A stretch of DNA of 64,000 nucleotides from an uncultured Pelagibacteraceae bacterium (lineage in GTDB: Bacteria; Pseudomonadota; Alphaproteobacteria; Pelagibacterales; Pelagibacteraceae), in contig CACDTB010000003.1 of assembly GCA_902555535.1 (NCBI GenBank), positions 1 through 64,000 on the forward strand, read 5' to 3'. The notes below the pieces were generated by a model. That model worked only from the letters and a program-made list of their open reading frames with translations. It was not told the DNA's origin and made no database searches. The position numbers and the translations under genes are program-made. Every line of letters begins with the position of its first letter. Positions within the stretch are counted from its first letter, which is position 1. Of this stretch, positions 25,698-50,060 are shown in pieces.

Positions 25698-26402
25698 ATG
25701 AATAAGTTATTGTTACCAGCAGATATAGTAGGAGGATCATTTTGGTTAATCTCTGTTGCTATGATTGGTGCAGCAATTTTTTTCTTTTTAGAGAGAGGTA
25801 GAGTTTCACACAGATGGGGTACAGTAATGAACCTTGTCGGAGTGATAGCTTTAATGTCTTCAATTCATTATTTCTATGCAAAAAATTTGTGGGTGTTAAA
25901 TGGACAGGCACCTACTGCATTAAGATATATCGATTGGCTATTAACTTTCCCACTTACGATACTCACTTTTTATGTCATGCTAAAATCTGTTTATGATGTC
26001 AAGAGAGGTATGTTTTGGAGATTATTAGTTGGGACTCTAGTTTGGGTAATAGCACAATTGTTAGGAGCTTATGGTTACATGAGTGTAACATTGGGCTTCT
26101 TAGTTGGAATAGTTGGATGGTTATACATTATAGGTGAGCTTTATATGGGTGATACTGGAAGAGCTAATAGCGCGTGTAATAATGAAAGCGTTCAAATGGC
26201 ATTCTTCGCAAACAGACTAATAATCACAATTGGTTTTTCAATTTATCATATTGGATATTTTATAGAGCATTTAGCGGGAGGAGCTAACATTAATAGTTTA
26301 AACGTGATTTATAATTTAGCAGACGTATTAAATAAAATTATATTTGGAATGATTATTTATAGCGCTGCTCTTCAAGATACTAAGAAAGGGGCACAACAAT
26401 AG
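25698..26402 (+). CDS. Proteorhodopsin-family microbial rhodopsin with DTT motif
   Basis: SFWLISVAMIGAAIFFFLERGRVS, LRYIDWLLTFPLTILTFYVML, NLADVLNKIIFG Schiff-base Lys; 7 TM. Confidence 0.95.
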   Translation: MNKLLLPADIVGGSFWLISVAMIGAAIFFFLERGRVSHRWGTVMNLVGVIALMSSIHYFYAKNLWVLNGQAPTALRYIDWLLTFPLTILTFYVMLKSVYDVKRGMFWRLLVGTLVWVIAQLLGAYGYMSVTLGFLVGIVGWLYIIGELYMGDTGRANSACNNESVQMAFFANRLIITIGFSIYHIGYFIEHLAGGANINSLNVIYNLADVLNKIIFGMIIYSAALQDTKKGAQQ

Positions 26403-26415
26403 GGAGGTTTAATTT

Positions 26416-28398
26416 ATGACTAAAGGAGCAGATATAATAGCAGGAATAATATTACTAGCGTTAGCAATTGCAATTATTGTTTATTTGTTGCACTGGCTTT
26501 ACAGACGATCTTCAAAAGAAGTTTCATTTGTGAGAACAGGAATGTTGGGAGAAAAAGTTGTAATATCTGGAGGAGCCTTTGTCTTACCTATTATTCATAA
26601 CATTACTCAAGTAGGTATGCGTACTTTAAGTATAACAATTAAACGAGGTGGAGATAAATCTTTAATCACGAAAGATAGAATGAGAGCAGAACTAGTTACA
26701 GAATTTTTTACAAAAGTTCCACCTGAAGCTAAAGCAGTATCTACTGCAGCTCAAACATTAGGAAACAGAACTTTAGATCCTGAACATTTAAGAGAAGTTG
26801 TTCAAGGTAGATTTGCAGATGCACTTGGAGAAGTTGCTGCGAAAATGACTCTTGATGAGATACAAGAAAACAGAGGTACGTTTGTTAAAGAAGTTAGAAA
26901 GATAGCAGATGAGTCCATTGGTCATACTGGTTTAGCTCTAGAGACTGTTTCAATAATTTCGTTAGACCAAACACCTATTGAGCAATTTAATCCTGCAAAC
27001 ACTTTTGACTCGCAAGGTTTAACTCAGTTAACAGAACAAATTGAAGCAAGAAAGAAAAAAAGAAACGACATCACGCAAGATACAAAAATTTCTATAGAAA
27101 ATAAAAATTTAGAAACAGTTCAAAAAGAATTGCAGATTAAAAAAAATGAGGAATTTTCAAGGTATCAACAGGAAAGAGAAATTGCTGTACAAAAAGCTAA
27201 TGAAAGAACTGAAACTATAAAGAAAAAAGCTGAAAAAGAGCGAGAAGCAGAAGAATCTGAAATTAAAAACCAAGAAGCTGTAGAGGTTGCAAAAATTTCT
27301 CAAAACCAGGTAATTGAAGTAGAGAGAAAATTAACTGAAACGAGATTAATTGAAGAAATAGAAAAAAGAAGAAGAGAGCAAAATGCACTCGAACAAGAAG
27401 CAGCTTTAGATATAAGACAAAAGAATTTGGATACTGAAATTAAAATTTTGGATCTAGATAAAGAAAGCGAATATGCTAGGCTGGAAAAACAAAGACTAGT
27501 AGATACTAAACGAGCTCAAGAGAAGGCAGAAATTATTAAAGAACAATCTGACAAACAAAGAGAGTCGGAGGAAGCACAAATTATCGCTGAGCAACAAATT
27601 AAAAATGCAAAAATTGCGCAACAAAAAAATATTGATGCGCATAGAATTGAGTCTGAAAAAGAAGTTAGAACTTTAGATATAGAGAAAGCTAAAAGAATTC
27701 AAATTGAAGAACATCAAAAAGAACTTGAAATACTTGAAAAATCTAAAGAAGTTCTAAAATCTAAAGCAGACGAGCAAAATACTAGAGCTAAAGCAGTTGA
27801 AGCTGAAGAAAAAGCAAATTCAACAAGATATATCGAAAAAGCTGAAGGAATGAAACAGGTAGACGTTATATCTGCTGCATCTAAAGCGGAGCAAGATAAA
27901 TATGAAACTATGGCGGCGAAATTAAGATATGAAATTGATGCTGCAGGTAAAGAAGCTCTTAATATGGCCGAAAATGTTAGAAGTGATGCAAGCAGAAGAA
28001 GCGCTTTAAGAAATAAATTAGCTGAGAAAATAGAGTCTATAATCAGAGAAAGTGTTAAGCCAATGGCAAATATTGGGGATATTAAAATTGTTGATGTTAG
28101 TGGCTTACCAGGTTTCAGTGGAACAGCTGGCGGAGGATCTGCCGGTGGAGGCAAAGATGTTTCAGGTGGCAAGAGCTCAGGTAACTTAGCAGATAATGTT
28201 GTGAGCTCAGCATTAAGATATAGAGCTCATCAACCATTTTTAGACAGTCTTCTGAAAGAAATCGGAATGAATCCTGGAGAAATTAGCAACATTAGAAATA
28301 TCTTAGGTGATTATGGTAATCCTAAAAAAGATTATCACATGAACTTTGGTGAAAATGTTAACGCAGATTTAAAAGGAGACAAGAGTCCAAAAAAATAA
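26416..28398 (+). CDS. Flotillin-like SPFH-domain protein
   Basis: N-terminal TM, SPFH (FVRTGMLGEKVVISGGAFVLPIIHNITQVGMRTLSITIKRGGDKSLITKDRMRAELVTEFFTKV), long Glu/Lys coiled coil, Gly-rich linker and conserved-looking C-tail. Confidence 0.9.
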   Translation: MTKGADIIAGIILLALAIAIIVYLLHWLYRRSSKEVSFVRTGMLGEKVVISGGAFVLPIIHNITQVGMRTLSITIKRGGDKSLITKDRMRAELVTEFFTKVPPEAKAVSTAAQTLGNRTLDPEHLREVVQGRFADALGEVAAKMTLDEIQENRGTFVKEVRKIADESIGHTGLALETVSIISLDQTPIEQFNPANTFDSQGLTQLTEQIEARKKKRNDITQDTKISIENKNLETVQKELQIKKNEEFSRYQQEREIAVQKANERTETIKKKAEKEREAEESEIKNQEAVEVAKISQNQVIEVERKLTETRLIEEIEKRRREQNALEQEAALDIRQKNLDTEIKILDLDKESEYARLEKQRLVDTKRAQEKAEIIKEQSDKQRESEEAQIIAEQQIKNAKIAQQKNIDAHRIESEKEVRTLDIEKAKRIQIEEHQKELEILEKSKEVLKSKADEQNTRAKAVEAEEKANSTRYIEKAEGMKQVDVISAASKAEQDKYETMAAKLRYEIDAAGKEALNMAENVRSDASRRSALRNKLAEKIESIIRESVKPMANIGDIKIVDVSGLPGFSGTAGGGSAGGGKDVSGGKSSGNLADNVVSSALRYRAHQPFLDSLLKEIGMNPGEISNIRNILGDYGNPKKDYHMNFGENVNADLKGDKSPKK

Positions 28399-28414: not shown

Positions 28415-28804
28415 ATGAGTGTTGAATTAGAAAACTGGGCAAAAAAATACGAAGAGTTTACAAATAATGATGAAACCATCAAAGCGATGGCAAAATATTA
28501 TACTTGCTCTTTTATGTTTGACATGGAAAGTGCAAAAGTAATTATTGAAATGCATGATGGAAAAGTAAAAAATATTAATACTAATCCATCACCTTTAGAC
28601 CCTTATGATTTTGCATTAAGAGCATCAGCCAATACGTGGAAAGAATTTGGCCAGCCGATACCTAAACCTATGTATCATGGAATTTGGTCAGCTAGTTTTT
28701 TAAGAGATTTAAAAATTGAAGGTAATCACTTAGTCCTTATGAAAAATCTAAGAAACTTTACTGTTCAATTTGAATTATTAAGAAAGACAGGGGTGCCGGT
28801 TTAA
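28415..28804 (+). CDS. SCP2 sterol-carrier-like small protein
   Basis: 129 aa, TCSFMFDMESAKVIIEMHDGKVKNI..DFALRASANTWKEF; SCP2-like pattern. Confidence 0.5.
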   Translation: MSVELENWAKKYEEFTNNDETIKAMAKYYTCSFMFDMESAKVIIEMHDGKVKNINTNPSPLDPYDFALRASANTWKEFGQPIPKPMYHGIWSASFLRDLKIEGNHLVLMKNLRNFTVQFELLRKTGVPV

Positions 28805-28829
28805 TGTCTAAAAATTGGAGGATTTTAAA

Positions 28830-29684
28830 ATGGTAAAACATCATGATGTAGTTGGGCGATATGTAACAATTGAAGTTGATGATTGTGAATATAAGGTATT
28901 TTATCTTCAAAATGGAAAAGGCATACCTTTAATTTGTCAACATACAGCAGGATGTCATAATCATCAATGGAGAGGACTATTAGAAGACCCAGAAATAACA
29001 AAAAATTATAATGTGATTGCATATGATTTACCTCGTCATGGGAAATCGGATCCTCCACATAATAAAGAGTGGTGGAAAGAAGAATACAAACTTACTGCAG
29101 AGCATTATTGTAACTTCATAGTCAAATTATGTGATGCTTTGGGTCTACAAAATCCAATTTTCATGGGGTCGTCTTTTGGAGGAAATGTTGCTTTACAATT
29201 AGCATTAAGACACCCGAATAAATTTAGAGCTGTAATTCCAGTAGAGGCAGCTGATTATGCCCCAGGATTTTATCTTGATTGGTGGAGACATCCTCACGCA
29301 AATGCTGCTCAGGTTTGTGCAAGCGGTACTTGGGATTTGATGGCACCACAGTCACCAGAAAAAGATAGATGGTTAACTTGGCATTATTATACTCAAGGTT
29401 CAGAGGCTTTTAAGGGTGATTTATACTTTTATTCTGTAGATCATGATTTAAGGAAAGAATTACAAAACATTGATGGCCATAAGTGTCCAGTAATAATGCT
29501 TACAGGAACTTATGATTATTTAACACCCCCAGAGGCGACAGAAAATACCGCGCGACAAATCAAAGGTGGAGTTTATATAGAAATGGCTGATATAGGACAC
29601 TTCCCTATGAGTGAAAATCATGAAGTTTTTAGAGTTTATTTAATGGAAGCCTTAAAAATAATTCAAGAAAGGACTAGTAAATAA
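28830..29684 (+). CDS. Alpha/beta hydrolase
   Basis: GKGIPLICQHTAGCHNHQW, GSSFGGNVALQLALRHP, GTYDYLTPPE; ATG at 28830 has GGAGG 5 nt upstream block, track TTG start 28815 not used. Confidence 0.85.
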   Translation: MVKHHDVVGRYVTIEVDDCEYKVFYLQNGKGIPLICQHTAGCHNHQWRGLLEDPEITKNYNVIAYDLPRHGKSDPPHNKEWWKEEYKLTAEHYCNFIVKLCDALGLQNPIFMGSSFGGNVALQLALRHPNKFRAVIPVEAADYAPGFYLDWWRHPHANAAQVCASGTWDLMAPQSPEKDRWLTWHYYTQGSEAFKGDLYFYSVDHDLRKELQNIDGHKCPVIMLTGTYDYLTPPEATENTARQIKGGVYIEMADIGHFPMSENHEVFRVYLMEALKIIQERTSK

Positions 29685-30128: not shown

Positions 30129-32486
30129 ATGTTAAGAATAACTGGATATAGTGACAAATATACTGCGTTCCCTGGAGAGGAAATAAAATTTTATGTTAAT
30201 GCTGAAAAAAATGAAAATTATGAAGTTCAAATAGTAAGATTAATACATGGTGATACGAATCCTGAAGGCCCAGGTTATAAAGATGAGGAGGTAGGAGCTG
30301 AATGTAATGGAAACTATCAAGGAAGAAATCAAAAAATTCATGGTGGTTCTTATTTAATTGTCCCTCAAGATGATAGATTAAATACATCTAGTTTTACTTT
30401 ACAAGCTTATATTTTTCCAACAACTCCAGACAAAGGTAGACAAGGAATTTTAACTAAGTGGAATCAAAAAACTAAAAGTGGTTATGGACTTTTTATTGAT
30501 GAAAATGCATGTTTGTCAGTATCAATAGGAGATGGTAACGGACAAATATCGGCACTTTCAAGTGAAAAGAAATTAATGAGAAAAGTTTGGTATTTAGTAG
30601 CCGCTTCTTATGATGCTGAAACAGGTAAATTAAAACTTTATCAAGAGCCTTGTGTGACACCGACAAATGGTGGATTAGGTATGTCACTTCTTCATCCGGC
30701 AGATGAAACAACATCATATGTAGAGTCTATTAGCAATTTAAAACCAAGAGCTAACGATGCTCCTTTCTTAATGGCAGCTTGTTCTTTAAATGACAGATCA
30801 GGCAGACATATACATGGTGCACATTATAAAGAAGCTACAAGCCCTATTGAGTTACCTGAACAAACTTTAACTTATAATGGTAAAATCGATAGACCTAGAT
30901 TGAGTAAAAAAGCACTATCAAAATCTGATATTGAGTCCCTTGCTAGAGGATTTACTGATTGTACATCTGAGTTAAGATCTGAAGTAATCGGTGCTTGGGA
31001 TTTCCATGCTAATATCACAAAAAATATAGCTTCTACGCACATTGTGGATAAAACCTCAAATCATTTAAACGGGTTTATAATAAATTTACCATGCAGAGGT
31101 ATGACAGGTTATAATTGGACTGCAGATGAAATGGTATTTCATCACAAACCTGAGGAATATGGGGCTATACATTTTCATGATGATGATATTGATGATGCAA
31201 GATGGGATGTAGACTTTACTTATAAAGTACCAGATTTGATAAGAAGTGGAGTTTATGCTGCTAGATTAAGAATTAATGGTGAGGAGTCTGCAGAAACTGA
31301 AGATTTTATACCTTTTGTAATCAAGCCGCCAAAAGGAAAAACAACCTCTGACCTTCTGTTTGTTTTACCAACAAATAGTTATATCGCTTACTCAAATGAT
31401 AATTTGGGAACTAATTCTGTTGTAGCACAATTACTAGCTGGAAAAGTTCCTGTTTTAGGTGCAGCGGATTTATATCTTAATGAACATAGAGAATATGGTT
31501 TATCAACTTATTCTTTACACTCAGATGGTAGTGGTGTTGCAATTTCTTCAAGATTAAGACCAATACTTAATATGAGACCAAAATATAGACACTGGCTATC
31601 CCCCTCATTATGGCAATTGAATGCAGATCTTCATTTAACAGATTGGTTAGAGGAAAAGAATTTTGATTTTGATGTAGTTACTGATGAAGATTTACACTTA
31701 GAAGGTGTTGAACTATTAAATCGTTATAAATGCGTTCTTACTGGATCACACCCAGAATATAGTTCAGAGAAAATGTTAGCTGCTTATGAACAGTATCAAT
31801 TGAACGGTGGAAGATGGATTTATTTAGGATCAGATGGATTTTACTGGATAAGTGAATATCATCCTGAAAATCCAAATATAATTGAAGTTAGAAAAGGTGA
31901 AGCAGGTACAAGGGCTTGGACTGCGAACCCAGGAGAGTATAACAATGCATTTGATGGAAAGTATGGAGGTATGTGGAGAGCAAGAGGAAGAATACCTTCA
32001 AAAGTATGTGGACTTACATTTACTGCATATGGATTTGATGTAAGTTCTTATTACAAAAGATGTCCTGATAGCAAAAGACCAGAATGTTCATGGATATTTG
32101 ATGGAGTTGGTGAAGATGAGGTAATTGGAGATTTTGGTTTAGTTGGTGGGGGTGCAGCTGGTTTAGAGCTAGACAGATATGATTTAGAATTTGGGACACC
32201 TCACAATGCTTATTTATTAGCAAGGTCTGAAAATCATACAAATCTTATGATGCAGGTAAACGAGGAAATTCACTTTACTGTAAGAGGATATTATGGGGGT
32301 GGAACAGAAAACCCGATGGTAAGAGCAGATATGATTTATTATAAAACTCCAAATAATGGAGCGCTTTTTGCTCCAGGCTCGTTGTCATTTTGTGGAAGTT
32401 TATCTTACAATAACTACAACAATAACGTTTCAAAAATTCTTGAAAACGCAATTAGAGGATTTTTGAAAGAAGGTCCTTTACCATAA
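30129..32486 (+). CDS. N,N-dimethylformamidase large-subunit-like protein (LamG-like + DMFA2_C)
   Basis: 785 aa; DKYTAFPGEEIKFYV, LamG-like SFTLQAYIFPTTPDKGRQGILTKW, PTNSYIAYSND, VLTGSHPEYSSEKM. Confidence 0.8.
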   Translation: MLRITGYSDKYTAFPGEEIKFYVNAEKNENYEVQIVRLIHGDTNPEGPGYKDEEVGAECNGNYQGRNQKIHGGSYLIVPQDDRLNTSSFTLQAYIFPTTPDKGRQGILTKWNQKTKSGYGLFIDENACLSVSIGDGNGQISALSSEKKLMRKVWYLVAASYDAETGKLKLYQEPCVTPTNGGLGMSLLHPADETTSYVESISNLKPRANDAPFLMAACSLNDRSGRHIHGAHYKEATSPIELPEQTLTYNGKIDRPRLSKKALSKSDIESLARGFTDCTSELRSEVIGAWDFHANITKNIASTHIVDKTSNHLNGFIINLPCRGMTGYNWTADEMVFHHKPEEYGAIHFHDDDIDDARWDVDFTYKVPDLIRSGVYAARLRINGEESAETEDFIPFVIKPPKGKTTSDLLFVLPTNSYIAYSNDNLGTNSVVAQLLAGKVPVLGAADLYLNEHREYGLSTYSLHSDGSGVAISSRLRPILNMRPKYRHWLSPSLWQLNADLHLTDWLEEKNFDFDVVTDEDLHLEGVELLNRYKCVLTGSHPEYSSEKMLAAYEQYQLNGGRWIYLGSDGFYWISEYHPENPNIIEVRKGEAGTRAWTANPGEYNNAFDGKYGGMWRARGRIPSKVCGLTFTAYGFDVSSYYKRCPDSKRPECSWIFDGVGEDEVIGDFGLVGGGAAGLELDRYDLEFGTPHNAYLLARSENHTNLMMQVNEEIHFTVRGYYGGGTENPMVRADMIYYKTPNNGALFAPGSLSFCGSLSYNNYNNNVSKILENAIRGFLKEGPLP

Positions 32487-33155: not shown

Positions 33156-35222
33156 ATGTCAGAAAAGTCTGTTTGGTTATTTTTATTTATTTTACTTTAT
33201 GCAGCATTTTGTTTTTTTTGGGGAGTAAGAGGATCAAAGTTTAATTCAGAGAATCCTCAAAAATATTATTTAGCTGACAAAAATGTTTCCTCGTGGGTAT
33301 TTTTCTTTGCTGCAACAGCTGCAACATTTGCTGGTTTAACTATAATTTCTCAAACAAGTTTAATATACAACGATGGATTTCAATATGTTGGAACGGCATT
33401 TATAGCGATTACAGTTCCACTTGGTAGTATCTTTTTCTTTAAAAGACAATGGATGTTAAGTAGGAAGTTTGGCTACATAACACCTGGTGAAATGTATTAT
33501 GACTATTATAAAAGTGATACCTTAAGAATAATTACAGTTCTTGTAACTTTTTTTGTAGCAATACCTTTGTTAGCAGTTTTTTTTGGAGCAACAGGTTTTT
33601 TGGTAAACATTTTGTCTGATGGATACATTTCACGAGATCTTGGGATGTGGGTTATTTCAACAATTGTATTATTTTATGTTACAAGAGGAGGTTTTAAATC
33701 TGTTGTTAGTGTAGGCGTGGTACAATCTTGGTTATACTTTTTAACTGTTATTATACTCGGTCTTATTATTTATTTTTTTGTAGGAAATTTTGAAACTTTT
33801 GGAAGAGCATTATCTAAAATTGCAACTACACCTATAAGCAATTGGGGTAATACTCAAGGATATGGAGGAGGAGATTTCAATGGATATTTTGCATTACCTG
33901 GTGTTATTCAATGGGTAGCAGGCCTAGGAAAAAATCCTGCAGTTGGAGGACCATGGACTGCTATGATGATATTTACATTTGCTATTTCTTTTATGGGAGT
34001 AGTGTTATCTCCATCTTTCTCAATGTGGAGCTATACCGCAAAACATCCAAAAGTATTCTCTTATTATCAAATTTGGGGTTCAGCGGTAGTAGTTGGCATT
34101 TTATTGTTTGTATTTGCTACTTATCAAGGTGTAGGCGCTAGTTTGTTGGGAGCAAATTCTGAGATAAATAGTAGTGGTTTATCAATAAACAAAATACTCC
34201 CAGAAGTATCATCAGAAGATCATTCACTACTAATTTATCAAATTATAAATTTAATGGATAACAGTGCTTTATGGGTAACTGGATTGTTAGCCGTAGGGGT
34301 AATTGCAGCAATTCAGTCTACTGCAGCGGCTTTTTTAATTACATCAGGAGGCATTATTACCAGAGATCTTTATAAAACTTATGTTAATAAAAATATTTCC
34401 TGGGAAAATGAATTAGTAGCAGTTCGAATAATTACAATGTTAATATTTTTAGCTGCACTTTATCTTGCAACATTTGCAAAACCTGCCATGGTAATTTTTA
34501 GTGGTATATCAATATCAATAGCTTTTCAGTTTTTAATCGTTCTTTTAGGTTTAATTTGGTTTCCGTGGATAACCAGAGGGGCTGCAATATCTGGTATTAT
34601 CATAGGAATTATTATTGTAATTTTAACAGAGACTATCGGACAACAAATTTCAGGTAATAGATTACCATGGGGAAGATGGCCATTAACAATTCATTCTGGT
34701 GTTTGGGGATTGTTATTTAATGTATTTATATGCTTTTCTGTTTCAGCTTTTTCTTCACTAACAAAAATAGACTCAGATAGAAATCATAGACAAAAATATC
34801 ATGACTTCTTAAATGATCACATGGGTCTTCATCCAAGTAGAACTAAACTTAGATCATTTGCTTATGTAATTGCCTTGATATGGTTATTTTTTGGTGCAGG
34901 ACCTGGACAAGTTCTTGGAAATAGTTTTTTTGGTGAACCAAGTGCAGGATATGAAGAATGGATCTTAAAAATACCTTCTTTATGGGGATATCAATTAATC
35001 TGGTGGTTTTTTGGTATAGGTTTAATTTGGTTCTTGGCTAGTAAAATGGATCTATCAACTTTACCTAACAAACCTATACAAGCAAACGATTTATATAAGA
35101 GTCCAGATGAAATATCAGGAGAAGTTAATTATATTGATAAACTAGGAACAGGCTACGGTTGGATTTTAATACTAATTGGTATAGCTATTTTTGCAATAAT
35201 CTTTTACGTATATTTTGTTTAG
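33156..35222 (+). CDS. Sodium:solute symporter (SSS) family
   Basis: 688 aa, SSS motifs ATAATFAGLTIISQTSLIYNDG, TRGGFKSVVSVGVVQSWL, GVIAAIQSTAAAFLITSGGIITRDLYK. Confidence 0.87.
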   Translation: MSEKSVWLFLFILLYAAFCFFWGVRGSKFNSENPQKYYLADKNVSSWVFFFAATAATFAGLTIISQTSLIYNDGFQYVGTAFIAITVPLGSIFFFKRQWMLSRKFGYITPGEMYYDYYKSDTLRIITVLVTFFVAIPLLAVFFGATGFLVNILSDGYISRDLGMWVISTIVLFYVTRGGFKSVVSVGVVQSWLYFLTVIILGLIIYFFVGNFETFGRALSKIATTPISNWGNTQGYGGGDFNGYFALPGVIQWVAGLGKNPAVGGPWTAMMIFTFAISFMGVVLSPSFSMWSYTAKHPKVFSYYQIWGSAVVVGILLFVFATYQGVGASLLGANSEINSSGLSINKILPEVSSEDHSLLIYQIINLMDNSALWVTGLLAVGVIAAIQSTAAAFLITSGGIITRDLYKTYVNKNISWENELVAVRIITMLIFLAALYLATFAKPAMVIFSGISISIAFQFLIVLLGLIWFPWITRGAAISGIIIGIIIVILTETIGQQISGNRLPWGRWPLTIHSGVWGLLFNVFICFSVSAFSSLTKIDSDRNHRQKYHDFLNDHMGLHPSRTKLRSFAYVIALIWLFFGAGPGQVLGNSFFGEPSAGYEEWILKIPSLWGYQLIWWFFGIGLIWFLASKMDLSTLPNKPIQANDLYKSPDEISGEVNYIDKLGTGYGWILILIGIAIFAIIFYVYFV

Positions 35223-36401
35223 GTGATTATGAATTTAAATAATTTTACATTTAATACAACATCAGGAATTAGATTTGGTAATGGTACGTCTAAAAGTTGT
35301 GTTTCAGAAATATCTCAAAAACTTGGACCAAATATTTTATTTATTACAGACAAAGATTTAATGTCATTAAAATTAACAGAACCTACTTTAATTGAATTAA
35401 ACAAATTATCCTCAAAAGTAGAAGTTTTCCAAGATGTTGAGGCTGATCCTTCTCTAAAAACACTAATGAATGCGATAGAGATTGGGAAGAAAAATAAAAT
35501 TACAGGAGTTATTGGTTTTGGAGGCGGGTCATCAATGGATGTTGCTAAGCTAACTTCACTAATCCTAGGTTCAAACGAGAATATTGAAGAGGCATGGGGT
35601 GTTTCTAACGCTAAAGGTCCAAGATTACCTTTAATATTAGTTCCAACCACAGCAGGAACGGGTTCGGAAGTGACTCCTATATCTATAATTACTGTAGGAG
35701 AGGAGGAAAAAAAAGGTGTATCTTCTCCAATTATTCTTCCAGATATAGCTATTTTGGATCCAGAATTAACCGTTGGTTTACCAGCTCATACTACTGCAGC
35801 AACAGGTATTGATGCAATGGTTCATGCAATAGAGGGTTATGCCTCTGCAAATAAAAATAACAATCCAATATCGAAAATGATTGCTGTAGAGGCACTGAAG
35901 CTTTTAGGAGGTTCAATTGAAAAAGCTGTTTTTGAAGGCTCAAATATTGAGGCAAGAGGCAATATGTTATTAGGTGCAATGTTAGCAGGAAAATCTTTTG
36001 CTAATTCTCCAGTTGCTGCTGTTCATGCTTTAGCATATCCTATTGGAGGAACATTTCATGTATCCCATGGTCTTTCAAACTCTCTAGTTCTTCCATATGT
36101 TTTAAGATTTAATAGTGTAGATAATAAAGCCACAAAAGACTATTCAGATTTAGCTCCGTTTCTTTTTCCTGATATCGATATGAGTAAGGGAAGCCAAGCT
36201 ATTTGTAAGGAGTTTATAGATAGGCTTGAAAATTTATCAAAAAAACTTGGTCTTCCACAAAAATTAAGGGAGGTCAATATTCCCAAGGAAGCATGTAAAA
36301 AAATGGCTTCAGATGCAATGAAACAAACCCGTTTATTAGTAAATAATCCAAGAGAGGTGACAGAAAATGACGCTCTTAACATTTATGAGGCTGCCTGGTA
36401 G
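35223..36401 (+). CDS. Iron-containing alcohol dehydrogenase
   Basis: GFGGGSSMDVAKLTSL, PTTAGTGSEVTP, GIDAMVHAIEGY, HVSHGLSNSLVLP. Confidence 0.92.
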   Translation: MIMNLNNFTFNTTSGIRFGNGTSKSCVSEISQKLGPNILFITDKDLMSLKLTEPTLIELNKLSSKVEVFQDVEADPSLKTLMNAIEIGKKNKITGVIGFGGGSSMDVAKLTSLILGSNENIEEAWGVSNAKGPRLPLILVPTTAGTGSEVTPISIITVGEEEKKGVSSPIILPDIAILDPELTVGLPAHTTAATGIDAMVHAIEGYASANKNNNPISKMIAVEALKLLGGSIEKAVFEGSNIEARGNMLLGAMLAGKSFANSPVAAVHALAYPIGGTFHVSHGLSNSLVLPYVLRFNSVDNKATKDYSDLAPFLFPDIDMSKGSQAICKEFIDRLENLSKKLGLPQKLREVNIPKEACKKMASDAMKQTRLLVNNPREVTENDALNIYEAAW

Positions 36402-36409
36402 AATTAATT

Positions 36410-37246
36410 ATGGAAAATAATAAAGAAGATATTTTTGAAAATACAACAAAGTTTAATTCTGGAATTAAACTTTATATGTTCCAAACAGGATCTATAAAAA
36501 CAAAATTAAAGTTCATTAAAATGAATCATAGTGAGGAACCTTATGAAATTCCAGTTCCATGGTTTTTAATAAAGCATCCTCAAGGAGATGTAATTATTGA
36601 TGGCGGAATGCCAATTGAAGCAGCACTCGATAAACATAAACATTGGGGTGATGTAGTAGATGCTTACGATCCAGTTATGAAAGTTTCTGAATGGTGTAAA
36701 GAGGTAGTTAAAACTGTAAATACAAACCCCGAGGATGTTAAATATGTTATACAAACTCATTTACATTTAGATCATTCAGGGGCGATTGGACACTTCCCAA
36801 ACGCTACCCATATAACTCAAAGAATAGAATATGATTATGCCTTTAACCCTGACTGGTTTTCTCAACCCGCATATATAAGAGCAGATTTTGACAAACCAAA
36901 TATAAGATGGAAATTTTTACAAGGCAAAAAAACGGATTTTTATGATGTCTATGGCGATGGAGTTATTAAAATAATATTTACTCCTGGCCATACTCCAGGA
37001 CATCAATCTGTTCTAGTAAATCTTCCAAAAACTGGACACATGTTGTTTACTGGAGATGCTTGTTACACAGGAGATCATTGGTGTGATAAATGCTTGCCAG
37101 GTCTTGTAGCATCTGCTTCTGACGCTGCTGACTCTGTTAAAAAATTAAGAAAGGTCGCAAAAGATCATAATGCTAAAGTAGTTTGGGGCCATGACCCTGT
37201 TACTTGGTTAGATTGGAAAAAAGCTCCAATGTTTTATTACGATTAA
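36410..37246 (+). CDS. Metallo-beta-lactamase-fold hydrolase (AHL-lactonase-like family)
   Basis: QTHLHLDHSGAIGHF, FTPGHTPGHQSVLV, FTGDACY, VVWGHDP. Confidence 0.87.
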   Translation: MENNKEDIFENTTKFNSGIKLYMFQTGSIKTKLKFIKMNHSEEPYEIPVPWFLIKHPQGDVIIDGGMPIEAALDKHKHWGDVVDAYDPVMKVSEWCKEVVKTVNTNPEDVKYVIQTHLHLDHSGAIGHFPNATHITQRIEYDYAFNPDWFSQPAYIRADFDKPNIRWKFLQGKKTDFYDVYGDGVIKIIFTPGHTPGHQSVLVNLPKTGHMLFTGDACYTGDHWCDKCLPGLVASASDAADSVKKLRKVAKDHNAKVVWGHDPVTWLDWKKAPMFYYD

Positions 37247-42649: not shown

Positions 42650-44050
42650 TTAAATTTGACTTCTAATATGTGGCGATCTTGCATAAAGAGCCACCATTGG
42701 AATAATTAATAGACCAAGAATAAATTGCTGCGCTTCCCAGCTTAAACCCCAACCTATTAAAACTGTTGTTATAATTTGTAAGATCAACACACCTATAACG
42801 CTTAATCCATAACCACCATATCCACCTAGAAGGGACGTTCCTCCAATTACAACTGCTGCTAATGTTGTAAATAAATATATATCTCCAGCTCCTACAAAGC
42901 CTCCACCACTCCAACCTAAAAGAAGTGCACCAGTTAACGCAGCAAAAAAACCACTAATAACATACGCACCAATCCAATAACCTTTTTCAGAAATTGAAAG
43001 TCTAGAAGATGATAATCGACTACCACCTAATGCATACAAGTGCCTTCCCCATTTTGTTAACCTCAAACCAATTATAATTAAGATACTTGCTACTATCCAA
43101 ATAATAATTACTGGTGGAATTGGAAGGCCTATTGTTTTACCATTCATTGAAGCCAAGTTCGTCATCCATGGTGGGACAACTCCAAATACAGTACCTGCAG
43201 AAAATGTACCTAACGCAACTAATATTTGCACTCCACCTTTAACAAAAAAACCAACTCCTAAAGTTAAAATTAATGCCTGTCCCTGAAGTCTAAAACTTAA
43301 TATTCCATTAACCAGTCCTATCAATGCTCCTAGTAACAGCACAGCTAAACAAGCAAGCCATGGTGGAACACCTTTAGATATTAAAGACATTAGAGCAACG
43401 TTTACTGATCCAATTACAAATGGTATTGATAAGTCCAATCCCCCAAGAAGAGCCACAAAAGTTTGACCAACGGTTGCTAGCCCTAAAAAAGCAGCAAACA
43501 CCAGCATTGACTTCATATTAAGTAATGTAAGAAATCCTGGAATTGTCAGTGATCCAATTATAAATAAACCAATTAATACTGATATCCCAATAAATACACT
43601 TTTAGTCCCTTTGATATATCTGCTTATAACCCCCATGAAGATTACAAAACCTAAAAATATTAAAAAAGAAACTAAGGTTCTTCCTGAAAAAAAACCATCA
43701 GCGATAAAAGATACAAAAATAAAAATAAGTATAATTCCTAGAAACGCAACAGTTTTCCATTTATGTTCTTTTATATTTTTAAAGAAGAAATTTTCTTCGA
43801 TTTCATCTTCTACAGGCTTTTCATCTTTTGGAAATTTAGTAAAAATATTTTGTTTTAATTCTTCATTTATCCATCGTACTGAAAAGTGGTACCATCCCCA
43901 AAGTATAAGACCAGTGACCGCTAATGAGAAGGTTACTATATTCATCCAGTCAGCACCATCGTACCAACCTAAAACTGCAGTACCAATTCCACAAAGTATT
44001 GCAAAAATTAAACCCAATCCTTTAAAAAATAAAAAAGCGGAACGTTTCAT
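42650..44050 (-). CDS. CUT2/ribose-type ABC transporter permease with ~150-aa N-terminal extension
   Basis: VGQTFVALLGGLDLSIPFVIGSVNV; GAGDIYLFTTLAAVVIGGTSLLGGYGG. Confidence 0.85.
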   Translation of the reverse strand: MKRSAFLFFKGLGLIFAILCGIGTAVLGWYDGADWMNIVTFSLAVTGLILWGWYHFSVRWINEELKQNIFTKFPKDEKPVEDEIEENFFFKNIKEHKWKTVAFLGIILIFIFVSFIADGFFSGRTLVSFLIFLGFVIFMGVISRYIKGTKSVFIGISVLIGLFIIGSLTIPGFLTLLNMKSMLVFAAFLGLATVGQTFVALLGGLDLSIPFVIGSVNVALMSLISKGVPPWLACLAVLLLGALIGLVNGILSFRLQGQALILTLGVGFFVKGGVQILVALGTFSAGTVFGVVPPWMTNLASMNGKTIGLPIPPVIIIWIVASILIIIGLRLTKWGRHLYALGGSRLSSSRLSISEKGYWIGAYVISGFFAALTGALLLGWSGGGFVGAGDIYLFTTLAAVVIGGTSLLGGYGGYGLSVIGVLILQIITTVLIGWGLSWEAQQFILGLLIIPMVALYARSPHIRSQI

Positions 44051-44051
44051 A

Positions 44052-46373
44052 TTACTTTACCTCATCCCATTGACTTAATTGTTTATCACGAGCAATTTTC
44101 TCTCTGTATATTGACATAAATTGCCAAACGAGAGGTGTTAAAGGTATTCCAATAATAAATACAGCTAATATTTTATAAAAAGAATAACCTATTGAGTAAA
44201 ATATTGCAGACCAGAGAGCAGCAGCAATAATTACTATATACATGTAAGGAGCAAAACGTTTGTAACTTCCTTTATGCCCCATATTTAGAAATAAAAAATA
44301 TTGAACCAAGAATACTGCTAAAATACTAAATGCTAACTGTGAATATCCAGAATTAACAGTCTCGTAGAAAAATCTTTTCGTTGCTTCATATTTTACTTGA
44401 GACAAGTCTCCTATAGATAATTCAGAAATTATTTTTGGCTGATAAAGAGATGGATCATCTGAAATAAATGTATTACCCCCAACAAAATATGTTGCTATAA
44501 TTGCTAAAACACCAAATCCAAATATATAAACATTTGTTAAGTTTTTTATTCTAGAATGAGCAAATGGTGCGGTTATAACAAACAGCAGCAATACAACAAG
44601 TATTACACCATATCCCTGTATTCCAAAAAAGCTACTTTCTGTGCTTTCAATTAAATTGTTATAGGAAATTCCTTTAAGGACAATTAGAGAGAGAGCAGCA
44701 AGGAAAAATAGCATCGCTGTAGATTTAGTTCTAGCACTAAACTGAGGAAGCATCGCGACAACAATTAGCGAAGCTAATAGCACAACTCCAGCAAAATAAA
44801 TTATACTATATGTAGTTCCTGAAATAATTGCTCCTTCTGAAATATTTGAAAGATAATTTAATTTTTCCAAGCTAAAATATTGTGGAGAAGAAGTCTCAAT
44901 ACTACTGACTTGATTTGACTGGATTGATATTCTCTCTGTATCCGTTAGAAGGTCTTTTTCTTTATCATCTGGATCAAAAATCAAACCGGCAGCGAGAATA
45001 ACCACAACTATTGCAAATGTTATAGTTGACGGACTCCTGTGAACCGTTAATAAATACAGCAGTAAAGCAACGCCTGCGATACCTATAATTATATAAAATA
45101 CAATGGTTCCTGGCGTTTCAGTAAGTTGCACAACTCCATGACCAGCAAGAGAACCTCCTTTGGCAGTTCCTGTTCCTGTAGTTGAACTACCTTCATCTTC
45201 TACTATAATATTTCCAGTCGCATCAATTTTTCTAACTTTTTTTCCTCTAGTATCTTTAACTTCAACTTCTTTTTTTACTTCTTGTTCAATGACAATTGGT
45301 TGATCGTAAACCTGATGAATGACAACAAAAGAACCTGCAAATGCCATTAATATAAAGAACACCATTACTGACAATCCTTTTGTTATTCTTGTTACATAAG
45401 GAAGTATTAGACTTACTAACAAAGCTATAACTAGCACTGCTCCATAAGATAAATCAGACACAAAGCTTTGTAATCTTTCAAATTTAAATGTTACTAAAAT
45501 ATAATTAATCAAATACAAATTAAGTGCTCCCAGTATTGCACCAAATGCTCCTCCACGTCCTCCTGCTAAGCTTGCACCACCAAGGACTAAAGCAGTAATA
45601 CCCAGCAATGTATATTTAGTTCCTTGTAAAGGGTCACCAGAACCAACGAGTGCGGTAAAGCATATAGCTGATAAAGCCGCAAACAACCCTGCTATTAAAT
45701 GTGCAACGATCCTAACTAAATTAATTTTGACCCCACTTGTAAAAGCCGCACGTTCATCAGCTCCCATTAATTTAAGATGACCCCAAAATGCAGTATGAGT
45801 AATTATATAAAATAAAATTGTAGCCAATATCATCAAAAGAAAGATTTCATTAAAAATAGTAAATCCTTCACCCCATGGTATTAACCAGTCAGGTGCTATA
45901 CCACCTGGTCTAGGTAAAATTACAATATTAATACCTGCAAATGCCAAATATCCAGCAAGGGATACAATTATTGGTGAAACTCGAACGAAACATACAATAA
46001 TTGCGTAGAAAAATTGCCATATCAAACCCATTGCAAAAGCATAAATAAACCAACTTACTGGTGACTGTAAAAATCCCGCAGCATACAATTGTATACTGCT
46101 TACATTTATAAATCCCATAAAAGGACCTATAGATAAATCAACACCACCTCTTCCTGCCATGGCAATAAAAGTTAACGCATAAGTCGTTAATATTAATGGA
46201 GCTGTAAGCATTATGGCGCTACCAATACCTGACTGAGATATCAATATTGGGCTTCGAATTAACGCAAATATAAGTAATGCAAAAAAGATGAATATAGGGA
46301 CCATCAAATATTTGTTTGATGATGTATCAACGCTTGATCTGAATGTTTTTTTAATTTTTTCTACTGTTTCCAT
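44052..46373 (-). CDS. CUT2/ribose-type ABC transporter permease with large C-terminal membrane extension (773 aa)
   Basis: TFIAMAGRGGVDLSIGPFMGFINV, GSGDPLQGTKYTLLGITALVLGGASLAGGRGG; further TM segments after residue ~430. Confidence 0.83.
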   Translation of the reverse strand: METVEKIKKTFRSSVDTSSNKYLMVPIFIFFALLIFALIRSPILISQSGIGSAIMLTAPLILTTYALTFIAMAGRGGVDLSIGPFMGFINVSSIQLYAAGFLQSPVSWFIYAFAMGLIWQFFYAIIVCFVRVSPIIVSLAGYLAFAGINIVILPRPGGIAPDWLIPWGEGFTIFNEIFLLMILATILFYIITHTAFWGHLKLMGADERAAFTSGVKINLVRIVAHLIAGLFAALSAICFTALVGSGDPLQGTKYTLLGITALVLGGASLAGGRGGAFGAILGALNLYLINYILVTFKFERLQSFVSDLSYGAVLVIALLVSLILPYVTRITKGLSVMVFFILMAFAGSFVVIHQVYDQPIVIEQEVKKEVEVKDTRGKKVRKIDATGNIIVEDEGSSTTGTGTAKGGSLAGHGVVQLTETPGTIVFYIIIGIAGVALLLYLLTVHRSPSTITFAIVVVILAAGLIFDPDDKEKDLLTDTERISIQSNQVSSIETSSPQYFSLEKLNYLSNISEGAIISGTTYSIIYFAGVVLLASLIVVAMLPQFSARTKSTAMLFFLAALSLIVLKGISYNNLIESTESSFFGIQGYGVILVVLLLFVITAPFAHSRIKNLTNVYIFGFGVLAIIATYFVGGNTFISDDPSLYQPKIISELSIGDLSQVKYEATKRFFYETVNSGYSQLAFSILAVFLVQYFLFLNMGHKGSYKRFAPYMYIVIIAAALWSAIFYSIGYSFYKILAVFIIGIPLTPLVWQFMSIYREKIARDKQLSQWDEVK

Positions 46374-46375
46374 AT

Positions 46376-46885
46376 TTAATCAAAATAAACAATTTTAATT
46401 TTTTCTATCCCAACTTTATTTTTAATTTTCTTATTACTTTCATTTAATTTGTTGTAATCAATGACTTTGACTTTTTTATTTTTTACTTCGACTTGATTTT
46501 TTTCTTGGTTTTCAGTTTTTATTATTTTGTTGAATTGGCTATAATCATCTTTTGAATAGTGAGAGTTACTATTCTGACTTTCATTATTATTATTCAATTT
46601 TAAATTGTATTCTTGAAAAGTATCTAGGGTTTCAAACTTATCAAAATCCGAATTATTATAATAATTTAACTCTTTTTTAATATTTGGCTCATTCAACAAT
46701 TCGAAATTTTCATTGGTTTTCAAAATATTATTAAAATTATTTTTATCAGTATTTGAATATTTAACATCTTGATTTTTTTCAGATTTATTGACTTTAATAT
46801 TTTTATTAAATTTTCTAAATTCATCTAATTTCTGAAATTGAATTTCGTCTTCCGTATTATAGTAATTAATTTTATTTTCTTTCAT
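46376..46885 (-). CDS. Repeat-containing hypothetical protein (candidate adaptor/scaffold)
   Basis: 169 aa, Asn/Lys-rich; two ungapped ~56-aa repeats (NYYN...YS..D..xFN.I.KT) and C-tail KIKIVYFD. Confidence 0.7.
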   Translation of the reverse strand: MKENKINYYNTEDEIQFQKLDEFRKFNKNIKVNKSEKNQDVKYSNTDKNNFNNILKTNENFELLNEPNIKKELNYYNNSDFDKFETLDTFQEYNLKLNNNNESQNSNSHYSKDDYSQFNKIIKTENQEKNQVEVKNKKVKVIDYNKLNESNKKIKNKVGIEKIKIVYFD

Positions 46886-48636
46886 TAAAATGTTTTAATT
46901 TTTATTTTTTTACTTTTGTCATTATTATTATCTTTTTCAAAGTCTATTACTTTAACAATTTTATTTTCTGCGACATTTTTATTTTCTGAGAATTTAACTT
47001 GTTTATTATTTATATCTGTATTTTTTAATGAAGAAATTTTTGTCTCACCTATTCCAGCAGTCTGACCAAACATACCCTCTAATAAAGTATCTGCATTTAT
47101 CTTTTCATTTTCAAAAATATCAAAAACTGTTCCATTTCTAAAAACTATAACTTTTGGACATAGGCCTATAAATTCCTCTAGTTCACTAGATAAAAAAATT
47201 ACTGTATTTCCTTCTTCCACAAAGTTTCTTAAATGAACATAAAGATCTCTTTTGGTGCTAACATCTATTCCTCTTGCCGGATCGTTTAAAATTAAAACTT
47301 TAGGATGTTGAGCAAATGATCTTGCTATCATCACCTTTTGCTGATTCCCACCACTCAGCGAAGTAATTAAGTTATCTCTTGGGCCAGTTTTGATGCTTAA
47401 TCTATCTACTTCCCAATCAAAAATTCCATTTAACTCTAGCCAATCAACAAAACCTAAGAAACCAGCTCTGCTTGTTTTTTTATATAAAGGAACTACTAAA
47501 TTTTCATAAATACTTAAGTTTGGAAGAATTCCCTCTTTTTTTCTATCGCCTGAAACAAATGATATTCCATTTTTTTTTGCATCATCTAAAGTACTATATT
47601 TTATAAATTTTTCATTTCCGTCTGATATTTGTGTAATGCCTCCGTGAGATTCTTGAACACCAGCTAAAATTTTAACAAAGTCATCTTGTCCATTTCCGTC
47701 TAATCCAGTTACTCCAACAATCTCTCCACGTTTAACCTCAAAATTAACAGGCTTACTTTCAGGCCAAACAACTAGATTTTCTGCTCTCATAACTACATTG
47801 TCCGTTTTTGTTTGTACTGCAACAGATTTCGATTTTTCTCCGCTTTCGGCTCTTCCAGTCATTAAGCCTATAAGGTTTTTTTCGTTAAGATCTTTTTTTT
47901 CTAAAACTCCAACATCTATTCCATCTCTCATAACTGTAGCCTTATCACTAATTCGAACCAATTCTGCAATTCTGTGTGTTACGATAAAAACTGCTACTCC
48001 ATTCTCTTTTAACTCCCGCATTTTTTTGAATAGTCTTTCTGTTGAGTCAAAGTCTAAAGCTGCAGAAGATTCATCTAAAATTAATAATTTTGTATTTTCT
48101 CTTAGAAAGGCTCTAGCAATTGTTATCCATGCTTTTATTGGTAAAGAAAGATTAAAAGCTTGCGTATACGGGTCTACATATTCACCAACAAGATCTTCCA
48201 TAATTTCTTGGGCTTTAATTACTTTTTCTCTTTGTGTTAAGTTTTTATACCAAAAATCGTCAGAACCAACGAATAGGTTATCTACTACAGATGCCTCTTC
48301 AGCAATCATAACTTCTTGAAATACTGTAGCTATACCCATGTTTCTGGCCATAACAGGCGAAGTAGGAGTCTGACCCATTACCGAAACTTTACCTTTATCT
48401 ATTGGTAAAACTCCTGATAAAACTTTAGCAAGTGTACTTTTACCACAACCATTTCCTCCAACGATTGCATGTATCTCACCAAAATTTGCACTAAAATTTA
48501 CACCGTTTAATGCTTTAGTTACTCCAAAATATTTATGAACATCTTGAACGTAAATATCGCCAACTACTGTATTAGAATTCTTTGACAGCGCCTCTTTTTG
48601 TGAGGCGCTGTTCATATTGTTTTTTTCTGCACTCAT
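46885..48636 (-). CDS. Sugar-type (CUT2, duplicated NBD) ABC transporter ATPase with C-terminal tail
   Basis: VGGNGCGKSTLAKVLSG, second half LSGGNQQKVMIARSFAQHPKVLILNDPARGIDV. Confidence 0.9.
   Translation of the reverse strand: MSAEKNNMNSASQKEALSKNSNTVVGDIYVQDVHKYFGVTKALNGVNFSANFGEIHAIVGGNGCGKSTLAKVLSGVLPIDKGKVSVMGQTPTSPVMARNMGIATVFQEVMIAEEASVVDNLFVGSDDFWYKNLTQREKVIKAQEIMEDLVGEYVDPYTQAFNLSLPIKAWITIARAFLRENTKLLILDESSAALDFDSTERLFKKMRELKENGVAVFIVTHRIAELVRISDKATVMRDGIDVGVLEKKDLNEKNLIGLMTGRAESGEKSKSVAVQTKTDNVVMRAENLVVWPESKPVNFEVKRGEIVGVTGLDGNGQDDFVKILAGVQESHGGITQISDGNEKFIKYSTLDDAKKNGISFVSGDRKKEGILPNLSIYENLVVPLYKKTSRAGFLGFVDWLELNGIFDWEVDRLSIKTGPRDNLITSLSGGNQQKVMIARSFAQHPKVLILNDPARGIDVSTKRDLYVHLRNFVEEGNTVIFLSSELEEFIGLCPKVIVFRNGTVFDIFENEKINADTLLEGMFGQTAGIGETKISSLKNTDINNKQVKFSENKNVAENKIVKVIDFEKDNNNDKSKKIKIKTF
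48585..48611. promoter_or_regulatory. GC-rich hairpin inside 5' coding end of ABC ATPase
   Basis: ACAGCGCCTC-tttttgt-GAGGCGCTGT perfect 10-bp inverted repeat. Confidence 0.75.
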
Positions 48637-48654
48637 ACCCTTTTTGCAAAAGTA

Positions 48655-49857
48655 TTAGTGTGAACTTATATCGTATTTTTCTGGGTCAGAAGGATTATCA
48701 AAGAACGCTTCGATATACGATCGAGGTGCCCATTTATCCATTCCTGGGTTATCCCAACCTGTAGAATTTCTATCACAATCTTCATTTAAGATTTGTTTAA
48801 TTTCATCGAAATTCTTAGTTGCTGGACCAACCAGTATTGATTGGATTCTAGGACCTTGACCTTGAAGTGTTCTCATCATTACTTCCATTCCTAACTCGAT
48901 TTCATCTCCTGGAGGCCATGCATATATTGCTTCATCAATATATCCTGGGTTTTGTCTCCAATAACAAAGCGCACCCAATTCACCTCCTAAAGCGATTGGT
49001 GGAATAGGGTCTCTTCCAGATTGAAGTAAAGCTTGAAGAGTTCCTGTTTCTCCAGATGATTGAACTGCAATACCGTCAACTTTTTTAGTATTAGTTGATA
49101 GCCATTGTGAAAGTTCTTTCTGAGCAATTTGTGAAGTCCAGTTATGTGCTAATTGTCCAACAACATTTACATCTGGGTATTCTGCTAAAGCAGCTAATAC
49201 ACCTTTGTTTTGTTGGTCAGAAGCTGAATAGCCTGGAATTCCTTCCATTACTATAACATTCCCTTTTTCACCAATTAACTCAGCCATCCAAGCACCCACA
49301 TAATAACCAACCAATCTATAATTTACAGATGTGTTGATTGAATAAGGTGATGTTGTAAAGCCAGTAAATGAAAGTGTAGGTATGCCTTTTTCCCAACCAT
49401 ATTTAATTGTTGTGTTAAGAGCAGTAATGTTTGAACAACAAATAATGATAGCATCAACTTTCCCTCCGTCTATCATTTGTCTCATTTGTTGAATCTGAAG
49501 TGAATCGTCTAAGTTTGATTGAGTAATCACTATCTCATCAACCATTCCTAGAGCTTTCCATTTCGGATAAACAACTTCCATTAATCTTTCCATGGCACCT
49601 TTACGCCATGTGTTACCTGCATAAGTACTAGCATAACCAATAGTCCATGGTGGTTTTCTAGGACTTTTCCAGTTTCTCATGACAGCTTCCCCTAAGGGCT
49701 GATCACTATCCATGAAGTCCATGTTATATACATAATCCCTCATATCTTGAGGCACTTTACTTAAACATTCGGTACAAACTTCTTGTGTCGATGCCGAAGA
49801 GAAGATACCCAAAAACCATGAGAAGAGAATTACATAAATATATTTTTTTACTTTCAT
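48655..49857 (-). CDS. Periplasmic sugar-type substrate-binding protein of CUT2-like transporter
   Basis: Signal peptide MKVKKYIYVILFSWFLGIFSSAST; WTIGYASTYAGNTWRKG..QMIDGGKVDAIIICCSN. Confidence 0.85.
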   Translation of the reverse strand: MKVKKYIYVILFSWFLGIFSSASTQEVCTECLSKVPQDMRDYVYNMDFMDSDQPLGEAVMRNWKSPRKPPWTIGYASTYAGNTWRKGAMERLMEVVYPKWKALGMVDEIVITQSNLDDSLQIQQMRQMIDGGKVDAIIICCSNITALNTTIKYGWEKGIPTLSFTGFTTSPYSINTSVNYRLVGYYVGAWMAELIGEKGNVIVMEGIPGYSASDQQNKGVLAALAEYPDVNVVGQLAHNWTSQIAQKELSQWLSTNTKKVDGIAVQSSGETGTLQALLQSGRDPIPPIALGGELGALCYWRQNPGYIDEAIYAWPPGDEIELGMEVMMRTLQGQGPRIQSILVGPATKNFDEIKQILNEDCDRNSTGWDNPGMDKWAPRSYIEAFFDNPSDPEKYDISSH

Positions 49858-50060
49858 AGTTTCTCCTTTCAATAATATTTTATCTTCTCACTTATAAATT
49901 AAGATATCCAGGATTTATTAATTTCTAGTTTTTATATATAAATTTTATAACTAAAATTTTTGTTTGTTTTTAACAATAAAAATATACTAAGTTTAATGAT
50001 AAACTATTTAATAATATTTTCTAATTAGAGTTGTATCTATAGAATTATATTAATTTTTTT

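Follow-up and report, generated by a model that had tools for sequence, protein, structure and literature searches.

The paired replacement of Trp by Phe and of Pro by His in helix F of the flotillin-associated rhodopsin (FArhodopsin) encoded in the window, i.e. the whole 64,000-nucleotide stretch of Pelagibacteraceae DNA that was analysed, is fixed, defines its clade and is under purifying selection. The protein is a member of the published FArhodopsin family of SAR11 and probably no longer works with light; we favor, with moderate confidence, the view that it partners flotillin in the membrane without retinal, within a cassette comprising an ABC importer, a symporter, an iron-containing alcohol dehydrogenase (Fe-ADH) and a lactonase.

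Two fixed substitutions in helix F

The forward-strand ORF at 25698-26402 encodes a 234-residue type-1 rhodopsin (Pfam Bac_rhodopsin, E 1e-26). The relevant features are listed below, with the equivalent positions in bacteriorhodopsin (BR; PR, proteorhodopsin):

25698-26402, +: FArhodopsin, 234 aa, DTT motif, without N-terminal signal extension
25932-25967, +: DTT motif D79-T83-T90 (BR D85/T89/D96)
25947-25949, +: F84 codon, pocket-filling (BR T90; Val in PRs, His in PsFAR)
26043-26045, +: W116 codon, ring end of the pocket (BR M118; Met in PRs, Phe in HIMB59-type FARs)
26055-26057, +: Q120 codon (BR G122; Gly in PRs, Glu in PsFAR)
26235-26237, +: F180 codon (BR W182; Trp in PR)
26247-26249, +: H184 codon (BR P186; Pro in PR)
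26334-26336, +: K213 codon, retinal-type lysine (BR K216), kept in 53/53

The segment GFSIYHIGYF lies at 26232-26261 (ggt ttt tca att tat cat att gga tat ttt), and the two exchanges that a sequence-only reading had noticed there are borne out by the DNA, by a gapless alignment and by their fixation across the branch. Misregistration of the helix F columns was looked for and rejected, the alignment being free of gaps at this point: the product aligns gaplessly with PsFAR (PDB 9r21), residues 1-229 to 1-229, shows no helix F gap relative to proteorhodopsins, and helix F is gapless in all 103 aligned rows bar two distant rhodopsins. A single-sequence oddity or sequencing error was rejected as well, given that both residues recur throughout the branch: F180 and H184 are found in 53 of 53 rows (40 distinct proteins, with identity down to 83%), and Trp and Pro in all 50 of the other rhodopsins compared, a set made up of proteorhodopsins, FARs of the f67, HIMB59 and PsFAR types, further rhodopsins from the phylum and four opsins from which the retinal lysine has been lost. 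Across the 43 lysine-bearing rhodopsins outside the branch, eight positions never vary; the branch keeps six of them, and the two that it replaces are precisely the sites of F180 and H184. No W/H or F/P intermediates occur among the fetched sequences. Both codons vary synonymously within the branch (TTT/TTC and CAT/CAC, respectively), and pairwise comparison of the gene gives a median dN/dS of about 0.03 (268 pairs), a low value which argues for a working protein. The helix F observation is thereby confirmed and exceeds what chance would yield.

The AlphaFold model of the FArhodopsin (21 sequences, pLDDT 84) has 9r23 and 9r21 as its best PDB matches (Z about 32, rmsd 1.8-1.9 over 229 residues). 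Helix F is unbroken in this model at 163-192, where pLDDT is near 70, and split in a PR control model into 187-203 and 206-216, with a break at 204-205; loss of the helix F kink, as Pro-to-His would predict, is only suggested by the prediction and carries little weight at a pLDDT near 70. Pro-to-Ala mutants of BR keep their kinks, so that kink loss is not to be assumed. The BR P186A structure is available in the PDB (1q5i).

Reconstruction of the retinal pocket

The order of events along the tree places the helix F changes at the end of a longer remodelling of the pocket, on top of alterations that are older. At positions 84/116/120/180/184, the f67 FARs read V/M/A/W/P, the PsFAR group combines H84/M116/E120 with W/P, and the HIMB59 FARs combine F84/F116 and E or G120 with W/P; F84/W116/Q120 and F180/H184 are brought together only in the SAR11 branch. 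Expressed in BR numbering, the further branch changes are T90 to F84, L93 to T87, D96 to T90, M118 to W116 and G122 to Q120, the T87 site being occupied by Gln in L070 and L071, the two members that branch deepest. The proposal that the photoactive site is reorganised beyond the DTT change is hence supported and was even understated, in that F84, T87, W116 and Q120 are altered too. Enrichment of clade-specific residues in the pocket is modest (4/12, p = 0.02, Fisher test), and the residues at six pocket positions sum to about 173 cubic angstrom more than in the cell's own PR, a figure from standard residue volumes that amounts to bookkeeping and not to a cavity measurement.

The pocket set of pumping proteorhodopsins (W182, P186, G122 and M118) is not retained in the window FArhodopsin, and the proton-donor carboxylate (E108) is absent, its place being taken by T90. 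The retinal lysine and counterion set is present, namely K213, D79, D209 and R76; R76 (BR R82) and D209 (BR D212) are kept in 53/53 branch rows, and D79 is Asp or Glu throughout. Two FArhodopsins, L054 and L069, have Glu at the BR D85 position.

W182 packs against both the 9- and the 13-methyl groups of retinal (PMC4657025); the earlier statement named the 13-methyl contact alone. The accompanying suggestion that H184 supplies a new titratable group near the chromophore is not supported as stated, in view of the bulky pocket, the behavior of DTT-T proteins, which in E. coli neither bound retinal nor pumped (PMC5864233), and the lysine-less opsins in homologous operons; it stays unproven because the chromophore itself is doubtful. 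The composition of the pocket is consistent with the suggestion of the FArhodopsin authors that retinal is not bound.

Known relatives and the flotillin-linked cassette

The FArhodopsins of Pelagibacterales were described in 2023 by Haro-Moreno et al. (PMC10308929), and the window protein shares their defining characters: its own branch beside the PRs, a flotillin gene directly downstream on the same strand, a DTT motif (D79, T83, T90) where the family has DTT, DTL or DNI in place of DTE, an N terminus shortened relative to PR (by 24 residues against L001), a canonical DTE proteorhodopsin in the same genome (L001, contig C28) and a gene cluster with symporter, Fe-ADH, dimethylformamidase, PxpA and translocator. 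The retinal lysine, absent from the Rh-noK type, is present in 53/53. The FArhodopsins of PMC10308929 show no difference of substance from the window protein; they likewise combine the DTT motif, an adjoining flotillin, the gene cluster and a second, canonical PR; the single-cell genome AG-390-L03 (L047), modelled in that paper, encodes an opsin 94% identical to that of the window, with F180/H184 in both. The family is therefore already known. Its fixed helix F changes are not described in the literature examined, nor are the Trp and Pro changes named in the main text of PMC10308929, whose figure and supplements may show them.

PsFAR (9r21) is likewise flotillin-associated and has the same fold (Z about 32) and numbering at 56% identity, but keeps W180 and P184 and has H84, M116 and E120 against F84, W116 and Q120 in the window. 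PDB 9r23 is the PsFAR H84V/E120G double mutant, i.e. it carries mutations at two positions, identically numbered, that are also altered in the SAR11 branch; a literature search found no paper naming 9r21-9r23. The DTT-T rhodopsins of deep SAR11 (Olson et al. 2018, PMC5864233) agree with the window in motif and lineage, and SCGC AAA288-N07, named there as a DTT-T encoder, is our L075 and carries F/H; the discussion of DTT-T in that paper is limited to helix C residues. The PR of the host itself, L001, resembles the window FArhodopsin in family, K, D85, D212 and R82, and differs in its DTE motif, V/M/G pocket residues, W182, P186 and N-terminal extension. It lies on another contig of the 0.93-Mb Pelagibacteraceae genome, which also has a gene for a retinal-forming dioxygenase (blh, PF15461). 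One SAR11-type F/H FArhodopsin, L070 (AG-464-G03, G1196 contig C1), occurs in a genome grouped with the HIMB59 order, a placement which suggests that the FAR cluster has been transferred between orders. A viral or phage origin was rejected, since IMG/VR (protein and motif searches) and phage records contain no match to FArhodopsin.

The genes accompanying the opsin in the window are the following:

26416-28398, +: flotillin (SPFH/Band_7 and Flot domains), 660 aa, 13 nt after the opsin
28415-28804, +: conserved 129-aa protein of the FAR cluster
28815-29684, +: alpha/beta hydrolase of the FAR cluster
30129-32486, +: N,N-dimethylformamidase beta-like protein (DMFA2_C)
33156-35222, +: sodium:solute symporter-like protein (SSF)
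35223-36401, +: iron-containing alcohol dehydrogenase (Fe-ADH)
36410-37246, +: AttM-family lactonase, metallo-beta-lactamase fold (NF045700, 400.3 bits, cut-off 390)
42650-46373, -: two ABC permeases (BPD_transp_2), with homologues directly upstream of the opsin in other lineages
46885-49872, -: sugar-type ABC ATPase and Peripla_BP_4 substrate-binding protein

To judge from the AttM-class lactonase, the Fe-ADH and the sugar-type transporter, the substrate may be a small polyol, a sugar or a lactone; the position of the lactonase beside Fe-ADH is reminiscent of lactone/hydroxybutyrate catabolism, and the Pararhizobium operon (L176) likewise has an attM gene at its flank. Between 38302 and 42637 (reverse strand), a PxpA protein (NCBIfam) is accompanied by CT_A_B and biotin-carboxylase/CT_C_D proteins; the group has the appearance of a 5-oxoprolinase-type set and not of urea degradation, which PMC10308929 had proposed. 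The alpha/beta hydrolase is 84-88% identical to its homologues in L165, L166, L079 and L080, distant lineages across which identity is far lower for the opsin (51-68%) and the flotillin (51-64%); this enzyme may define the substrate or may have been transferred recently. In HIMB59 (L166), f67 (L165), L079, L080 and Rhizobiales the permeases immediately precede the opsin; in SAR11 they are found on the opposite strand, 16 kb from it.

All opsins linked to flotillin group in a single clade within the proteorhodopsins (support 96/97), and some of its members have lost the retinal lysine. These comprise opsins of an alphaproteobacterial family (G943, G1367, G1403 and G1391; loci L163/L168 in G943, L169, L170 and L171), all with flotillin adjoining, and opsins on plasmids of the Rhizobiales Hoeflea (L175, Hoeflea sp. 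IMCC20628), Pararhizobium (L176, P. gei p2) and Martelella (L177, Martelella sp. AD-3); in PMC10308929, lysine-less forms had been reported only from freshwater contigs. Arg or Leu stands in place of the lysine and the Asp counterion is absent. The Rhizobiales proteins, which belong to the same clade as the window FArhodopsin and sit in a homologous operon, have K216 to R, D85 to G and R82 to H, and keep W182 and P186. On the plasmids the operon begins with a substrate-binding protein, an ABC ATPase and two permeases, followed by opsin, flotillin, a small protein, an SSF-like protein and Fe-ADH, one of the two permeases being unlisted in the Hoeflea record. Their transporter, flotillin and Fe-ADH proteins are 42-57% identical to the window homologues, the SSF-like protein 26-28% and the opsin 33-34%. 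Two plasmids with the same kind of source and the same opsin match, CP070278.1 (246192 bases) and NZ_CP066788.1 (246197 bases), are labelled Dysgonomonadaceae and Martelella, respectively, and one of these labels is probably wrong.

Possible roles of the opsin

The retinal-free reading that we favor would work as follows. The bulky F84, W116, Q120 and H184 would occupy the space of the retinal ring and polyene, with the W-to-F change at 180 restoring some of the room, and retinal would consequently be bound poorly or not at all. The opsin would then be a seven-helix component of the membrane that works without retinal, is co-produced with flotillin and serves the uptake and catabolic cassette of ABC importer, SSF symporter, Fe-ADH and lactonase, perhaps as a scaffold, lipid-handling or transporter-partner protein, its actual biochemical job being the least certain step; K213, D79, R76 and D209 would be kept, at a guess, as a structural salt-bridge cluster. 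DTT-T proteins produced in E. coli showed neither retinal binding or pigment nor pumping, a negative that their authors ascribe possibly to misfolding (PMC5864233), and the AlphaFold analysis of FArhodopsins reported in PMC10308929 suggested clashes with retinal. As Rhizobiales opsins without the retinal lysine share the cassette, the shared role there cannot need retinal, and the simplest reading is that it is not needed in SAR11 either. Opsins scramble lipids without retinal (PMC12805836), and by analogy lipid scrambling is one possible activity of the window opsin. Several observations count against this reading. The conserved K213, R76 and D209 and the Asp/Glu at D79, for which a protein without retinal has no evident need, are explained no worse by a retinal Schiff base than by a salt bridge, the host genome makes retinal (blh), and another rhodopsin still pumps with W182F alone (PMC4657025). 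Moreover, W182 and P186 are retained in the relatives that lack the lysine, and SAR11 shows the opposite pattern, so that retinal loss by itself does not explain the helix F changes.

That the protein is still a photoreceptor, holding retinal in a reshaped pocket for dim-light sensing instead of pumping, with W182F and DTT slowing the photocycle and H184 tuning or transferring protons, we consider unlikely. The complete conservation of the lysine and counterion set agrees with it, as do the retinal synthesis gene and canonical PR of the same genome and the W182F variants of other rhodopsins, which bind retinal and cycle (PMC4657025); the bulky residues at BR T90, M118, G122 and P186, the E. 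coli result for DTT-T (PMC5864233) and the lysine-less opsins of homologous operons speak against it. Slightly less likely is a pocket remade for another ligand, such as a shorter apocarotenal, a lipid or the importer substrate, held by K213 or by Q120 and H184: two new polar residues are fixed next to the retained lysine, a retinal-free proteo-opsin with bound decanoate is known (PDB 8cnk) and the gene is linked to an ABC importer and catabolic enzymes, but Q120 and H184 may simply fill the cavity. We lend marginally less credence to the more specific proposal that the Schiff-base lysine and counterions were kept while the pocket, W182/P186 included, was remade with Gln and His for a different ligand, tying the opsin to the neighboring nutrient importer and not to light. 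Relaxed decay of a useless second rhodopsin, to which the missing donor carboxylate and the replacement of two near-universal residues might point, is scarcely credible and was rejected, being contradicted by the dN/dS as well as by complete fixation in 53 rows and the synonymous variation at the F and H codons.

SAR11 bacteria are among the most abundant in the sea and carry a second rhodopsin, for which the fixed F/H pair is a useful clade marker. The helix F changes provide at once a sharp marker and a set of mutations for testing light use by FArhodopsin, and the culturable Rhizobiales hosts, in which lysine-less opsins sit in the homologous operon, are a tractable setting for studying the role of the flotillin-linked opsin.
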